Source: a virus. From it: 38,301 nt of DNA. Every line of letters starts with the position of its first letter. Position 1 is the first letter of the stretch. The notes beneath the pieces are model-generated. The model was not told where the DNA came from. It saw only the letters and a program-made list of their open reading frames with translations, and made no database searches. Below, piece by piece: positions 24,213 to 28,052 of this stretch. The position numbers and the translations under genes are program-made. The DNA lies in the IMG/VR virus record IMGVR_UViG_3300042889_000741, positions 1-38,301 of that record; one strand, 5' to 3'.

Positions 24213-24337
24213 CATTTAATGCTTGGCGCGCTTATATCATGCTTGCGCAAGGACACAAAGAACAATTCTTAGCTTATTGCGATTCGTGCAATTTTAGCGT
24301 AGATGAAATTAATCACATTATAAATCAAACGGTATGA
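24200..24337 (+). CDS. Small protein before the PP-loop gene
   Basis: The 45-residue ORF overlaps the previous ORF by 13 bp and the next gene by 4 bp (ATGA). Its sequence (LTFNAWRAYIMLAQGHKEQF, then YCDSCNFSVDEINHIINQTV) looks like a small helical protein. The ATGA overlap suggests translational coupling to the DUF3440 gene. No family recognised. Confidence 0.55.
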   Translation: MDKLTFNAWRAYIMLAQGHKEQFLAYCDSCNFSVDEINHIINQTV

Positions 24338-25629
24338 AGCAGTATAACAATGAATTGAATGTTTATGAAGCATCAAAAGAACGTATTGACTTCATATTTA
24401 AAAATTTTAAAAGAATATACATAAGTTTTAGTGGAGGAAAAGATAGTGGAGTTATGTTAAACCTTGTTATTTCTTACATGAAAGAACATAACATAAAAGA
24501 AAAAGTGGGTTTAATGATAATGGATAATGAAGCTAATTTTAATCTTTCTTTAGAGTTTATGCATAGAATGGTAAAGGAAAACTTAAACTATTTAGATGTT
24601 TACTGGTGTTGTTTACCTATTTCTTTGCCTTGTACGGTAAGTTCTTATGCTATAAATTGGCAATGTTGGGGGGTAAATGACGAGCAATCGTGGATAAAAC
24701 CAATGTCTAAGGAAAAATATATTGTAAACATCGATAATCATAAATTTGATTTTTTTAGAGAAAATATGAATTATGATGAGTTTTGGGATAAGTTCGGCGA
24801 TTGGTATGCTAATGGAGAATCTTGTGCTTGTTTGATAGGGATAAGAACAGATGAAAGCTTAAACAGGTATAGAGCTATTATGAATCAAGATAAAACAATG
24901 TTAGACAATAAATTTTGGACTAAAAAAAACACAAACTTTGTTTACAATTGTTACCCTATATTCGATTGGAAAACACAGGATATTTGGGTTGCCAATGGTA
25001 AGTTTGAATGGGATTATAATAAGCTATATGATATTTTTTGGAAAGCTGGATTAACAATATCTCAAATGAGAGTAGCTAGTCCTTTCATGAGTGAATCAAA
25101 ATCTAGTTTAAATATGTATAGAGTTATTGATGCTGAAATATGGTCTAGATTATGCGCTAGAGTTTCTGGTGCAAATTTTATAGCCACATATGGAAAACAA
25201 TTAACTTACAGAAGTTTTAAACTTCCAGAAGGACATACTTGGAAAAGCTTTACTAAATTTTTACTAGAAACTTTACCTAAAGAAAGCGGAGAAAATTTTA
25301 AGTCGCGCTTCATTCAAAGTATTAAGTATTGGTGGAGAGTGGGGCGCGGATTGGATGAAAAGGTTATTAGGGATTTAAAGAAAAACAATATTGATTTTGT
25401 TATAGGGGAAAATACTAGGCACGGGAACAAAGATAAAAGGTGTGTTAGAATGATTCCTCCAGACCATTTAGATATGCTTAACTGTCATAATTCAGAGGTT
25501 ACAAGCTGGAAAAGATTTACTTTGACAATCTTAAAAAATGACCATACTTGTAAATACTTAGGGCTTGCCCCAACAAAAGAACAAGCTATTAGACAAAATG
25601 AAATTAAAGAAAAATATAAAAAATTATAA
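24334..25629 (+). CDS. DUF3440 PP-loop (PAPS reductase-like) protein, IbrA-like
   Basis: The 431-residue protein carries the PP-loop SGGKDS at residues 33-38, in YISFSGGKDSGVMLNL, the ATP-pyrophosphatase signature of PAPS reductases, DndC and tRNA-thiolation enzymes. The segment CACLIGIRTDESLNRYRAI and a C-terminal domain with VTSWKRFTLTILKNDHTCKY match the DUF3440 / IbrA pattern. It should bind ATP and activate a substrate by adenylation; the substrate is unknown. It is followed 2 bp later by the cupin and then by the ParB-like gene, recalling the IbrA-IbrB pair of E. coli phage-like elements. Its codons are very AT-rich compared with the late genes, which may reflect horizontal gain. Confidence 0.85.
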   Translation: MKQYNNELNVYEASKERIDFIFKNFKRIYISFSGGKDSGVMLNLVISYMKEHNIKEKVGLMIMDNEANFNLSLEFMHRMVKENLNYLDVYWCCLPISLPCTVSSYAINWQCWGVNDEQSWIKPMSKEKYIVNIDNHKFDFFRENMNYDEFWDKFGDWYANGESCACLIGIRTDESLNRYRAIMNQDKTMLDNKFWTKKNTNFVYNCYPIFDWKTQDIWVANGKFEWDYNKLYDIFWKAGLTISQMRVASPFMSESKSSLNMYRVIDAEIWSRLCARVSGANFIATYGKQLTYRSFKLPEGHTWKSFTKFLLETLPKESGENFKSRFIQSIKYWWRVGRGLDEKVIRDLKKNNIDFVIGENTRHGNKDKRCVRMIPPDHLDMLNCHNSEVTSWKRFTLTILKNDHTCKYLGLAPTKEQAIRQNEIKEKYKKL

Positions 25630-25631
25630 TT

Positions 25632-26009
25632 ATGAAAATTAGAACGATAAAAGAAATAGAATATACAGAAAGAGATGTAACGTTTAAAGAGGGTAGGAGC
25701 TTAAGGTTAATACTTGAATCTGATAACATGGGGTTTTCTTTCCATAAAACAATAATACCAAAAGGACAAAAAGGATTATGGCACTATAAAAACCATTTAG
25801 AATCTTGTTTTTGTGTAAAAGGAAAAGCAATTCTTACAAATCTAGATAATGGAGAAAGTTTTTTAATAGTTCCAGATACAATCTATATTTTAGATAAAAA
25901 TGATAGACATACTTTTGAATCGCTAGAAGATGTTATTTTATTAAGTGTTTTTAATCCTCCAGTTAAGGGAACAGAAACACATTTAAGTGATGGCTCATAT
26001 TCAATTTAG
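25632..26009 (+). CDS. Ectoine-synthase-like cupin (EctC homolog)
   Basis: The 125-residue protein is a single cupin very like ectoine synthase in length and sequence. It contains MGFSFHKTIIPKGQKGLWHY, KNHLESCFCVKG, TIYILDKNDRH and the terminal VFNPPVKGTETHLSDGSY. In the EctC numbering as I remember it, the iron ligands Glu57, Tyr85 and His93 fall on the same residues here, and Arg25, Thr40, Phe107, Glu115 and His117 are kept. Two usual residues differ: Gly21 instead of Trp and Ser105 instead of Cys. No ectA or ectB lies in the window, so it may have another substrate or use a host intermediate. It is embedded between the PP-loop and ParB-like genes. Confidence 0.8.
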   Translation: MKIRTIKEIEYTERDVTFKEGRSLRLILESDNMGFSFHKTIIPKGQKGLWHYKNHLESCFCVKGKAILTNLDNGESFLIVPDTIYILDKNDRHTFESLEDVILLSVFNPPVKGTETHLSDGSYSI

Positions 26010-26030
26010 TAACCAATTAAAAACAATAAT

Positions 26031-26552
26031 ATGAATAATTTTATTTCACCAGTTTACGGAGTTAAAGCAGTTCCTTTTGAAAAGGTTCAAGCAAATGATT
26101 ATAATCCAAATAGTGTTGCTCCTCCAGAAATGGAGTTGTTAGAAACTTCAATTTGGGAAGATGGCTATACTATGCCAATAGTTTGCTTTTATGATGAATC
26201 AATTGATAAATATATTGTTGTCGATGGATTCCATAGGTATAGCACTATGAAGAATAGTAAAAGAATATTTGAACGGGAAAATGGAATGTTACCAGTATCT
26301 GTTATCGACAAAGATATTTCAGATAGAATGGCATCTACTATTCGACATAATAGAGCAAGAGGCTCTCACTCTATTGATTTGATGAGCAACATTGTTTCTG
26401 AGCTGGTTGAAATGGGAAAAGGAGACGCTTGGATTTGTAAGCATGTTGGTATGAGTAAAGATGAATTGTTAAGAATGAAGCAAATAACAGGATTAGCTTC
26501 ATTATTTGCTAATAAAGATTTTTCAGCAAGTTGGGAAGCTCAGTCAGAATAA
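26031..26552 (+). CDS. ParB/Srx-fold protein, IbrB-like
   Basis: The 173-residue protein has the N-terminal ParB/Srx fold: VQANDYNPNSVAPPEMELLE, SIWEDGYTMPIVCFY, and the motif YIVVDGFHRYSTM. Then comes IRHNRARGSHSIDLMSNIVS, a segment resembling IbrB, and a helix-turn-helix-like region (ICKHVGMSKDELLRMKQITG). ParB-fold enzymes bind nucleotides and can act as CTPase, kinase or nuclease. It is preceded by a short A-rich leader after the cupin gene, and its end overlaps the next ORF by 22 bp. It is the likely partner of the IbrA-like protein. Confidence 0.8.
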   Translation: MNNFISPVYGVKAVPFEKVQANDYNPNSVAPPEMELLETSIWEDGYTMPIVCFYDESIDKYIVVDGFHRYSTMKNSKRIFERENGMLPVSVIDKDISDRMASTIRHNRARGSHSIDLMSNIVSELVEMGKGDAWICKHVGMSKDELLRMKQITGLASLFANKDFSASWEAQSE

Positions 26553-26992
26553 AACAAGTTTATGTTCCGTACTGGAAATGGGAGTGTTTCCAGAGCGGGA
26601 TGTGGAATAAGGTAGATAAACAAACTGAGTTAATAATGCTAAAAAAAGCAATCATATTTACTGGTAATTATGTTGATTATGAAAAATCAATGAACGATGT
26701 TGTTTTTAAATGGAAAAACACTATGTTAAATAATTTAAGCAATTTATCGATAAATAGAAAAGCTTTTTTAGGTCATTGTGCGGTTTTTTATAAAATGCAA
26801 ATTCCAGAATACATAGTTAGGGAAGCGTGGAAAATGCTTACAGATGAACAAAGAATTAAAGCAAATATATCTGCAGAAAACACAATAAAAAAATGGGAAT
26901 TATGGTACATGAACGAGTCAAAGAGTATATTGAAACATGGGAAAAAAGATGCTATAAAAACGGGATACCAGACGAAGCTCCCATTCAAATAA
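26531..26992 (+). CDS. Hypothetical protein of the IbrA/EctC/IbrB cassette
   Basis: The 153-residue protein overlaps the ParB-like gene by 22 bp. Near its start is a striking aromatic segment, VYVPYWKWECFQSGMW, followed by helices and a basic C-terminus. The listed start is a TTG at 26531; no ATG exists before the aromatic segment, and an ATA at 26549 overlapping the upstream TAA would also fit. The protein seems to be linked by overlap to both neighbours, so it probably acts with the cassette. No family named. Confidence 0.6.
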   Translation: MGSSVRIKQVYVPYWKWECFQSGMWNKVDKQTELIMLKKAIIFTGNYVDYEKSMNDVVFKWKNTMLNNLSNLSINRKAFLGHCAVFYKMQIPEYIVREAWKMLTDEQRIKANISAENTIKKWELWYMNESKSILKHGKKDAIKTGYQTKLPFK

Positions 26993-27162
26993 GCGACAAA
27001 GTGCCATCTTATAAAATGATTTGTATTGCTCTTTTAAAAAACGATTTGCAATTAACGTCATTAGGTTATAAAGCAAAGCAAAGCAAATTTTATTCGATAT
27101 TAAAAAGAATTGAAATAAGCGCAAGGCACACAGATAAACCAAAACAACTAAAATTATTTTAA
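26893..27162 (+). CDS. Stand-alone homolog of the DUF3440 C-terminal domain
   Basis: The 89-residue protein overlaps the preceding gene by 100 bp. Its sequence KVPSYKMICIALLKNDLQLT followed by SLGY aligns with VTSWKRFTLTILKNDHTCKY followed by LGL at the end of the 431-residue PP-loop protein (shared S-[WY]-K, LKND, LG). It therefore looks like a separate copy of that C-terminal domain. The N-terminal part (VKEYIETWEKRCYKNGIPDE, then AP) resembles IbrA-associated segments. The start could be the ATG at 26893 or at 26902. Function is inferred as an accessory to the PP-loop enzyme. Confidence 0.6.
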   Translation: MGIMVHERVKEYIETWEKRCYKNGIPDEAPIQISDKVPSYKMICIALLKNDLQLTSLGYKAKQSKFYSILKRIEISARHTDKPKQLKLF

Positions 27163-27392: not shown

Positions 27393-28052
27393 ATGAAATA
27401 CAAAATACTAAACTTATACGCTTGCTTAGGTGGCAATCGTTACAAATGGGATGAAGTAGCCGATAATATAGAAGTTACTGCGGTAGAATGGGATGCGGAA
27501 CTAGCAAGGCTATACCAAGAAAGGTTTCCTAAAGATATTGTAATAGTAGCCGACGCGCACCAATACTTACTAGACCATTATAAAGAGTTTGATTTTATTT
27601 GGAGTTCGCCCCCTTGTCCAAGCCATAGTAGGGCAAGATTTGCGAGGAGAAACACAACTACGCCAATTTATCCAGACTTAAAACTTTATGAGGAAATATT
27701 GTTTTTAGAAAATTATTATGAGGGTAAATATTGCGTAGAAAATGTAATTCCTTATTATGAACCTTTAATTCCCGCAATTAAAAAAGGTAGGCATTTATAT
27801 TGGACTAATTTTCCTTTGCCTAATAATATAATGGAAAGAAAGTGTTCTATAATGGAAAGCAAAAATGAAACTAAAAAATGGTGCGAATTTCATAATTATG
27901 ATTTTACTAAATATAAAGGAAAACAGGTTGTTCAAAAAATAGCTCGAAACCTTGTCGATTATGAAGCTGGTAAAACAATTTTACAAACTGCTTTTGGAAT
28001 ACAAGTAAAAGAAAACGCTAAACAAGTATCAATTTTTGATGAATTAGAATAA
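27393..28052 (+). CDS. DNA cytosine-C5 methyltransferase
   Basis: The 219-residue protein has the main motifs of cytosine-C5 methyltransferases: motif I in ILNLYACLGGNRYKW, motif IV WSSPPCPSHS with the catalytic Cys75, and motif VI VENVIPY (Glu116-Asn117-Val118). It transfers methyl groups from S-adenosylmethionine to cytosine. It is shorter than typical (about 300-400 residues), mainly from a short target-recognition region, and may have a simple target. It probably protects phage DNA from host restriction. The gene stands alone, without a restriction nuclease. Confidence 0.85.
   Translation: MKYKILNLYACLGGNRYKWDEVADNIEVTAVEWDAELARLYQERFPKDIVIVADAHQYLLDHYKEFDFIWSSPPCPSHSRARFARRNTTTPIYPDLKLYEEILFLENYYEGKYCVENVIPYYEPLIPAIKKGRHLYWTNFPLPNNIMERKCSIMESKNETKKWCEFHNYDFTKYKGKQVVQKIARNLVDYEAGKTILQTAFGIQVKENAKQVSIFDELE

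Follow-up and report, generated by a model that had tools for sequence, protein, structure and literature searches.

Hundreds of phages and plasmids encode proteins of the IbrA/IbrB type, which for two decades have borne the vague label "co-activator." The pairs known from phages, plasmids, and E. coli (YbdN/YbdM) consist of the same two core proteins, adjacent and co-directional, and pairs without ectoine synthase (EctC) are widely annotated in phages. Two other described systems lie close by: the CmoA-CmoX-CmoY-ParBc loci, in which a ParB-domain protein and an AMP-forming ligase serve to hypermodify phage cytosine (PMC12783734), and the Dpd system of 7-deazaguanine DNA modification, with DpdA and the ParB-like DpdB (PMC12839542). 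Here, we analyze a five-gene cassette in IMGVR_UViG_3300042889_000741, a single IMG/VR virus record of a contractile-tailed phage (38,301 bases; this whole stretch is "the window" below), in which an EctC-like cupin stands between an IbrA-like and an IbrB-like protein. The cassette is a real, widespread, and undescribed phage system, shared by numerous unrelated phages: IbrAB extended by enzymes of the ectoine pathway. Its genes are as follows:

24334-25629, + strand: IbrA-like PP-loop enzyme, with a PAPS-reductase/FAD-synthase-type ATP-pyrophosphatase domain and DUF3440 (PF01507, PF11922, phrog_2302)
25632-26009, + strand: EctC-like cupin with a cyclase-type active site, Trp21 lost (PF06339, NF009806, PDB EctC, residue table)
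26031-26552, + strand: IbrB-like ParB/Srx-fold protein; motifs DGFHR and RHNRARG, helix-turn-helix-like region at the C-terminus (phrog_2159)
26531-26992, + strand: ORF4, a small all-alpha protein with a TTG start, overlapping the end of IbrB; conserved part 26549-26899
26893-27162, + strand: ORF5, homologous to the C-terminal part of DUF3440 but standing alone (PF11922)

All five open reading frames (ORFs) exist where the original prediction, made from the sequence of the window, had placed them, and its coordinates are all correct; the two overlapping "helper" ORFs at the end of the cassette are real genes. When compared with five relatives, all five are under purifying selection (nonsynonymous divergence, dN, ~0.11-0.47; synonymous divergence, dS, ~1.0 or more).

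What carries the conclusion above is linkage across phages. Relatives of the cupin turned up at 54 loci in an initial scan of viral contigs; nearly all of these loci have IbrA and IbrB adjacent, and usually ORF4 and ORF5 next. A viral profile scan gave 229 cupin relatives, of which 80 were kept; the genome set comprises the best 80 of 265 matches, and the genome figures cover the nearest relatives alone. Counted as distinct sequences, 104 of 105 viral or phage EctC proteins of the cassette type lie beside IbrA and/or IbrB. Both partners accompany 101 of these, three lie beside IbrB and ORF4 on contigs ending before the IbrA position, and the remaining EctC (L022) is on a contig that ends just after it, so that its neighborhood cannot be judged. 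Only 2 of 79 distinct genome matches stand in a cassette (L059 and L060), and near 70 of them none of the partners searched for was seen. This contrast is far beyond chance, although the p-value is indicative only, since the sequences are related. The idea that a DUF3440 protein, an EctC-like cupin, and a ParB protein belong together was to be abandoned if the cupin proved seldom adjacent to the other two elsewhere; the counts decisively show the opposite. The IbrA/IbrB-like pair flanking the cupin is confirmed by profile matches, and its linkage is stronger than had been claimed.

The genes of a cassette all point the same way in each of the 106 distinct cases, and about a dozen gene orders occur; the gap between IbrA and EctC has a median of 17 bp and is ≤60 bp in 92 of 103 cases; EctC and IbrB are fused in one reading frame in 17 distinct cassettes, and ORF5 and IbrA form one frame in L038. 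Such reshuffling without separation, together with the fusions, indicates that the parts function together. The 104/105 linkage, the fusions, and the variety of gene orders led us to reject a chance neighborhood; for the cassette, an origin in a contaminating bacterial ect operon was rejected as well. A separate contig, L058 (MT835761.1), is labeled Bacteriophage sp. but has both ectB and a true EctC, and it probably comes from a bacterium; for that reason it was left out of the linkage count and used as a control only. Among 762 plasmid records, none covers 80% of the EctC-ParB protein of Mycobacterium phage Gaia and no linkage was seen; solitary EctC and IbrB-like proteins both occur there.

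The window cupin is a full-length match to Ectoine_synth (PF06339, 144.1 bits, cutoff 27) and to NF009806 (148.1 bits, cutoff 128), and matches PDB 5bxx at 2e-24; PHROGs v4 has no family for it. Known EctC holds its iron with Glu57, Tyr84, and His92, contacts its substrate through Trp21, Arg25, Asn38, Thr40, Tyr52, and Glu57, and contacts the product through Ser23 and Phe106 (PMC6344544). The window cupin has the iron ligands Glu57, Tyr85, and His93, and among cassette copies the Glu and Tyr are present in 106/106 and the His in 105/106. The EctC length and layout that had been read from the sequence, with these ligands kept, is borne out by the family match and the residue table. The accompanying statement that most substrate residues are kept holds for Ser23, Arg25, Thr40, Tyr52, and Phe107; it overlooked that the Trp21 "piston" is a glycine. 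Throughout the cassette clade, the iron ligands and known contact residues (including S23, R25, T40, and Y52) are essentially invariant, except for position 38 (His, Thr, or others) and Trp21, and Trp50 and His51 are gains specific to this clade.

The loss of Trp21 deserves attention. This residue is invariant in EctC of ect clusters and required for activity; it flips in ring closure, and the W21A variant keeps 9.7% activity, that is, ~90% is lost (PMC6344544). The window has Gly21, and the Trp is missing from 100 of 101 alignable cassette copies; about 71 of 74 solitary chromosomal EctC proteins have it, either at the position itself or shifted. Solitary chromosomal EctC of Rhizobium, Ruegeria, and others (many of L061-L137) have two N-terminal types, "GxxW" and "WGxG," with the Trp shifted three residues relative to Ser23. 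Neither ectA nor ectB was seen in any cassette neighborhood, as had been noted for the window. Because Trp21 is lost, we file the phage cupin as EctC-like, not as ectoine synthase proper, and strict ectoine synthase activity is unlikely. A catalytic center kept while the Trp21 lid is removed suggests the same type of reaction on another, perhaps larger, substrate.

Two phages carry a second enzyme of the pathway. An EctD-type dioxygenase lies between IbrA and EctC at L017:4066-4998 and L018:4030-5004, and the two match solved EctD structures at 8e-44 and 3e-73, respectively. The EctD signature F-x-W-H-S-D-F-E-T-W-H-x-E-D-G-M/L-P is kept at all but one position in L018 and all but two in L017; TIGR02408 is the best family, at 284.5 and 172.8 bits, under the cutoff of 336.5. 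A scan of 2.9 million viral contigs with this signature (degenerate and pattern-limited, so that distant ones may escape) returned only these two phages. In L017, moreover, one reading frame spans EctC and IbrB, with ~200 additional residues separating them. In the known pathway EctD acts on the product of EctC. An EctD beside EctC without ectA or ectB argues that the cassette EctC may still make an ectoine-like ring.

The window IbrA contains PAPS_reduct (PF01507, 46.6 bits) and DUF3440 (PF11922, 194.5 bits, cutoff 25), carries the PP-loop SGGKDS, and matches phrog_2302 at 1e-105, as expected of the IbrA family. The PP-loop (S-G/A-G-K-D-S) and a GxRxxES..R motif are kept across 208 IbrA homologues. 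The catalytic ECGxH of PAPS reductase (CysH) is found in none of these, and CxxC, of which DndC/SspD has a conserved pair, in just eight; DndC matches are weak, at 23-29 bits. Sequence searches of PDB with IbrA and IbrB gave nothing significant. The AlphaFold2 (AF2) model of IbrA (predicted local distance difference test score, pLDDT, 86) has as nearest folds PAPS reductase, FAD synthase, CysD, the tRNA thiolases NcsA/TtuA, and the lysidine synthetase TilS. Members of the PP-loop superfamily adenylate a carbonyl or carboxylate, which a nucleophile then attacks.

IbrB of the window matches phrog_2159 at 1e-79, whereas its Pfam ParB_N match falls under the cutoff. It is 46-78% identical to 11 others compared, with DGxHR, RHNRARG, and the helix-turn-helix (HTH)-like region conserved, and thus combines ParB N-domain motifs with an HTH-like tail. 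ParB-fold members bind various nucleoside triphosphates (PMC12704722). No ParA-like family was recognized among recurrent neighbors, and no clear repeat array lies near the cassette in the window; parS was not systematically sought.

ORF4 has no family match in profile searches. Its AF2 model (pLDDT 92.6) is all-alpha, and a fold search found no relative in PDB and just one related protein in the viral library. It is present in 180 of 208 distinct IbrA loci, with or without EctC, and is a new all-alpha family and core partner of IbrA/IbrB. Where ORF4 is missing, an SNF2-type helicase with a small partner often stands in for it: across the 208 loci both occur in 2, ORF4 alone in 178, and SNF2 alone in 17. 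The replacement is found with EctC (L007, L009, L011-L013, and L016) and without it, in Streptococcus, Lactobacillus, and Fusobacterium phages. In one of the latter, phiFN37, a second ParB-like protein (L210:8751-9272) and a queuine tRNA-ribosyltransferase gene lie near the IbrA/IbrB/SNF2 set. ORF5 matches PF11922 at 29 bits (cutoff 25; positions 132-177) and is conserved beside ORF4.

A small GIY-YIG protein occurs in five cassettes (L057:6890-7264, which is Gaia gp105; L036:4666-4983; L038:4509-4844; L167; and L195), and all four viral contigs found by a sequence-pattern search to hold a relative of it are cassettes. It could be a nuclease that discriminates modified DNA, or a homing element. 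Distinct from this family is a NUMOD3/GIY-YIG homing-type endonuclease between EctC and IbrB at L026:4510-5262.

The history of the cassette can be read from IbrA. EctC accompanies 108 of 208 distinct IbrA proteins; another 75 have IbrB and ORF4 without it. The EctC-bearing ones fall in one clade of 109 tips (support 0.95; two changes by parsimony), so the simplest account is a single addition of EctC to a pre-existing IbrA-IbrB core, which then retained it. The only EctC-less member, L346, has a 1-Cys peroxiredoxin between IbrA and IbrB (L346:3868-4617). More than 50 IbrA positions are nearly fixed within the clade and rare outside it; these fit co-adaptation, but shared descent would also produce them.

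How, then, might the cassette work? Our preferred explanation, advanced tentatively from sequence and predicted structure, is that these five genes form a phage-specific biosynthetic cassette that builds an ectoine-like cyclic group on nucleic acid, most likely phage DNA. Its ancestral core would be IbrA, IbrB (as an NTPase of ParB fold whose tail is HTH-like), and either ORF4 or its substitute, the SNF2-type helicase. IbrB and ORF4 (or SNF2) would load the complex on DNA, where IbrA would join or activate a diaminobutyrate-type group. EctC could then close the N-acyl-2,4-diaminobutyrate-type unit with loss of water, giving an ectoine-like six-membered cyclic amidine that, in at least two phages, the EctD-type dioxygenase would hydroxylate. 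ORF5 may be an accessory DUF3440 tail. The likely use would be to shield phage DNA from host nucleases. We infer the link to nucleic acid from the ParB and HTH-like parts of IbrB, the replacement of ORF4 by SNF2, and the GIY-YIG proteins, and DNA is favored over RNA because SNF2 and GIY-YIG are DNA-acting families. The full chemical statement, namely that phages write an ectoine-like tetrahydropyrimidine ring by way of a diaminobutyrate-type base group attached by IbrA/IbrB, closed by EctC and sometimes hydroxylated by EctD, is more doubtful. That such a set could modify a nucleotide, DNA, or RNA had already been suggested; given the conserved linkage this is the best-supported reading, and it remains an inference. 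Anti-defense or superinfection exclusion had been suggested as well and would be a candidate role. The sequences establish the conservation of the cassette, its fusions, the single gain of EctC, the intact metal site, the missing Trp21, and the pairing of EctC with EctD; the reaction on the actual substrate, DNA as the target, and protection of the phage are what we propose.

Several points weigh against this explanation. EctD is rare (2 of ~106 cassettes), and the peroxiredoxin in the place of EctC in L346 is not explained by a pure cyclase logic. The neighbors of the cassette are mainly generic replication and recombination genes, and no supplier of the diaminobutyrate group was recognized among them. 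Phages commonly encode SNF2 helicases, and whether a locus has ORF4 or SNF2 may be a matter of lineage; the GIY-YIG proteins may simply be homing endonucleases. Finally, all that is known of chromosomal IbrAB (E. coli YbdN/YbdM) is its regulation by the LysR factor CitR, with no hint of a modification role (PMC9068703).

The main rival, which we consider unlikely, has the same enzymes acting on RNA, with the cassette remodeling host or phage tRNA. It is the main rival because 3-amino-3-carboxypropyl-uridine (acp3U, a product of host TapT) already has the geometry required: it offers an N-acyl-diaminobutyrate unit, and, judging from established structures, closure of its alpha-amine on a ring carbonyl would give an ectoine-type six-membered ring. 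The IbrA model resembles the tRNA thiolases and lysidine synthetase in addition to PAPS reductase, and EctC keeps Thr40 and Arg25, which hold the alpha-amine and carboxylate. However, no RNA-binding domain was found, an acp transferase is missing from the cassette, and the ParB-like, SNF2, and GIY-YIG partners act on DNA.

That IbrA and IbrB form a regulatory module and co-activate transcription, as their naming in E. coli has it, with the cupin as a non-catalytic ligand sensor, is quite unlikely. IbrAB is annotated as a co-activator of prophage gene expression, a usage also found in PMC4490671 and PMC8813620, and IbrB has its HTH-like tail; but a sensor could do without a complete catalytic core, whose residues are, with the iron ligands, essentially invariant in >100 diverged cupins, and without the next-step dioxygenase seen in two cassettes. 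Very unlikely is an auxiliary metabolic set for producing ectoine, hydroxyectoine, or some related free solute out of a host precursor, with IbrA/IbrB just in control: EctC matches its family over full length and above the curated cutoff, and EctD stands beside it in two phages, but ectA and ectB were not seen near the cassette, Trp21 is lost, EctC is fused to a ParB-like protein and linked with IbrA/IbrB instead of solute genes, and the hosts include Mycobacterium and, probably, Bacteroidota. Equally improbable is Dnd/Ssp-type sulfur transfer (thiolation of DNA or RNA, with IbrA acting like DndC), for which the weak DndC matches, the PAPS-reductase fold, and a ParB-like partner as with DndB can be cited, but which leaves EctC and EctD without a role, with CxxC in 8/208 and ECGxH in 0/208 IbrA proteins and no cysteine desulfurase, DndD, or DndE seen in the cassette or among recurrent neighbor families.

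As for the phage itself, the window contains genes for terminase, portal, tail sheath, tape measure, and baseplate hub. Its terminase is nearest to those of Flavobacterium phages (38%) and its gene starts lack Shine-Dalgarno sequences, which would fit a Bacteroidota host. Just downstream of the cassette, at 27393-28052, is a 219-aa C5-cytosine-methyltransferase-like protein with an SPPCPSHS motif, apparently without a target-recognition domain; relatives of it lie near six IbrA loci, four with EctC and two without.

The cassette had also been called a system not yet described. This holds in the literature searched on IbrA/IbrB, DUF3440, and ectoine synthase with phage, where we found no paper describing it; GenBank, however, already names Gaia gp104 and two proteins of Pseudoalteromonas phage XCL1123 by domain, as "ectoine synthase/ParB multidomain protein," beside PAPS reductase. 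In a Mycobacterium abscessus prophage, a gene for a "cysteine dioxygenase" lies three genes away from one for PAPS reductase (PMC8092301).

The EctC lineage puts a name to the chemistry of at least one step, an iron-dependent cyclization sometimes followed by hydroxylation, and so the open question of the IbrA/IbrB family becomes a mass-spectrometry experiment on cultured phages, namely Gaia and Nebkiss of Mycobacterium (M. smegmatis) and XCL1123. Should phages indeed write an ectoine-like ring onto nucleic acid, base hypermodification would gain a new class and the IbrA/IbrB family a first biochemical function; the EctC-bearing lineage would also explain why some EctC proteins exist without an ectoine pathway.

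In comparison with known systems, Gaia gp103-gp107 (L057) and the XCL1123 locus are the same cassette in cultured phages, with EctC-IbrB a single protein in Gaia. Known IbrA/IbrB pairs are 46-78% (IbrB) and roughly 32-78% (IbrA) identical to those of the window, but are without EctC and usually without ORF5. Ectoine synthase, including the solitary EctC of Rhizobium, Ruegeria, and others, has length, fold family, iron ligands, and most substrate contacts in common with the cassette cupin, which differs in the loss of Trp21, in Trp50/His51, in having no ectA/ectB, and in being fused or adjacent to IbrB. Dpd also combines a ParB-like NTPase (DpdB) with a base-modifying enzyme (DpdA) and an SNF2-type helicase (DpdE); the cassette has no TGT/preQ0 enzymes, and its modifying enzyme is a PP-loop ATPase. 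CmoA-CmoX-CmoY-ParBc is likewise a phage locus, one that pairs an ATP-using, AMP-forming enzyme with a ParB-domain protein, and its base handle is later elaborated with an amino acid; CmoA and CmoY homologues were not recognized in the cassette, which adds a cyclase and sometimes a hydroxylase.

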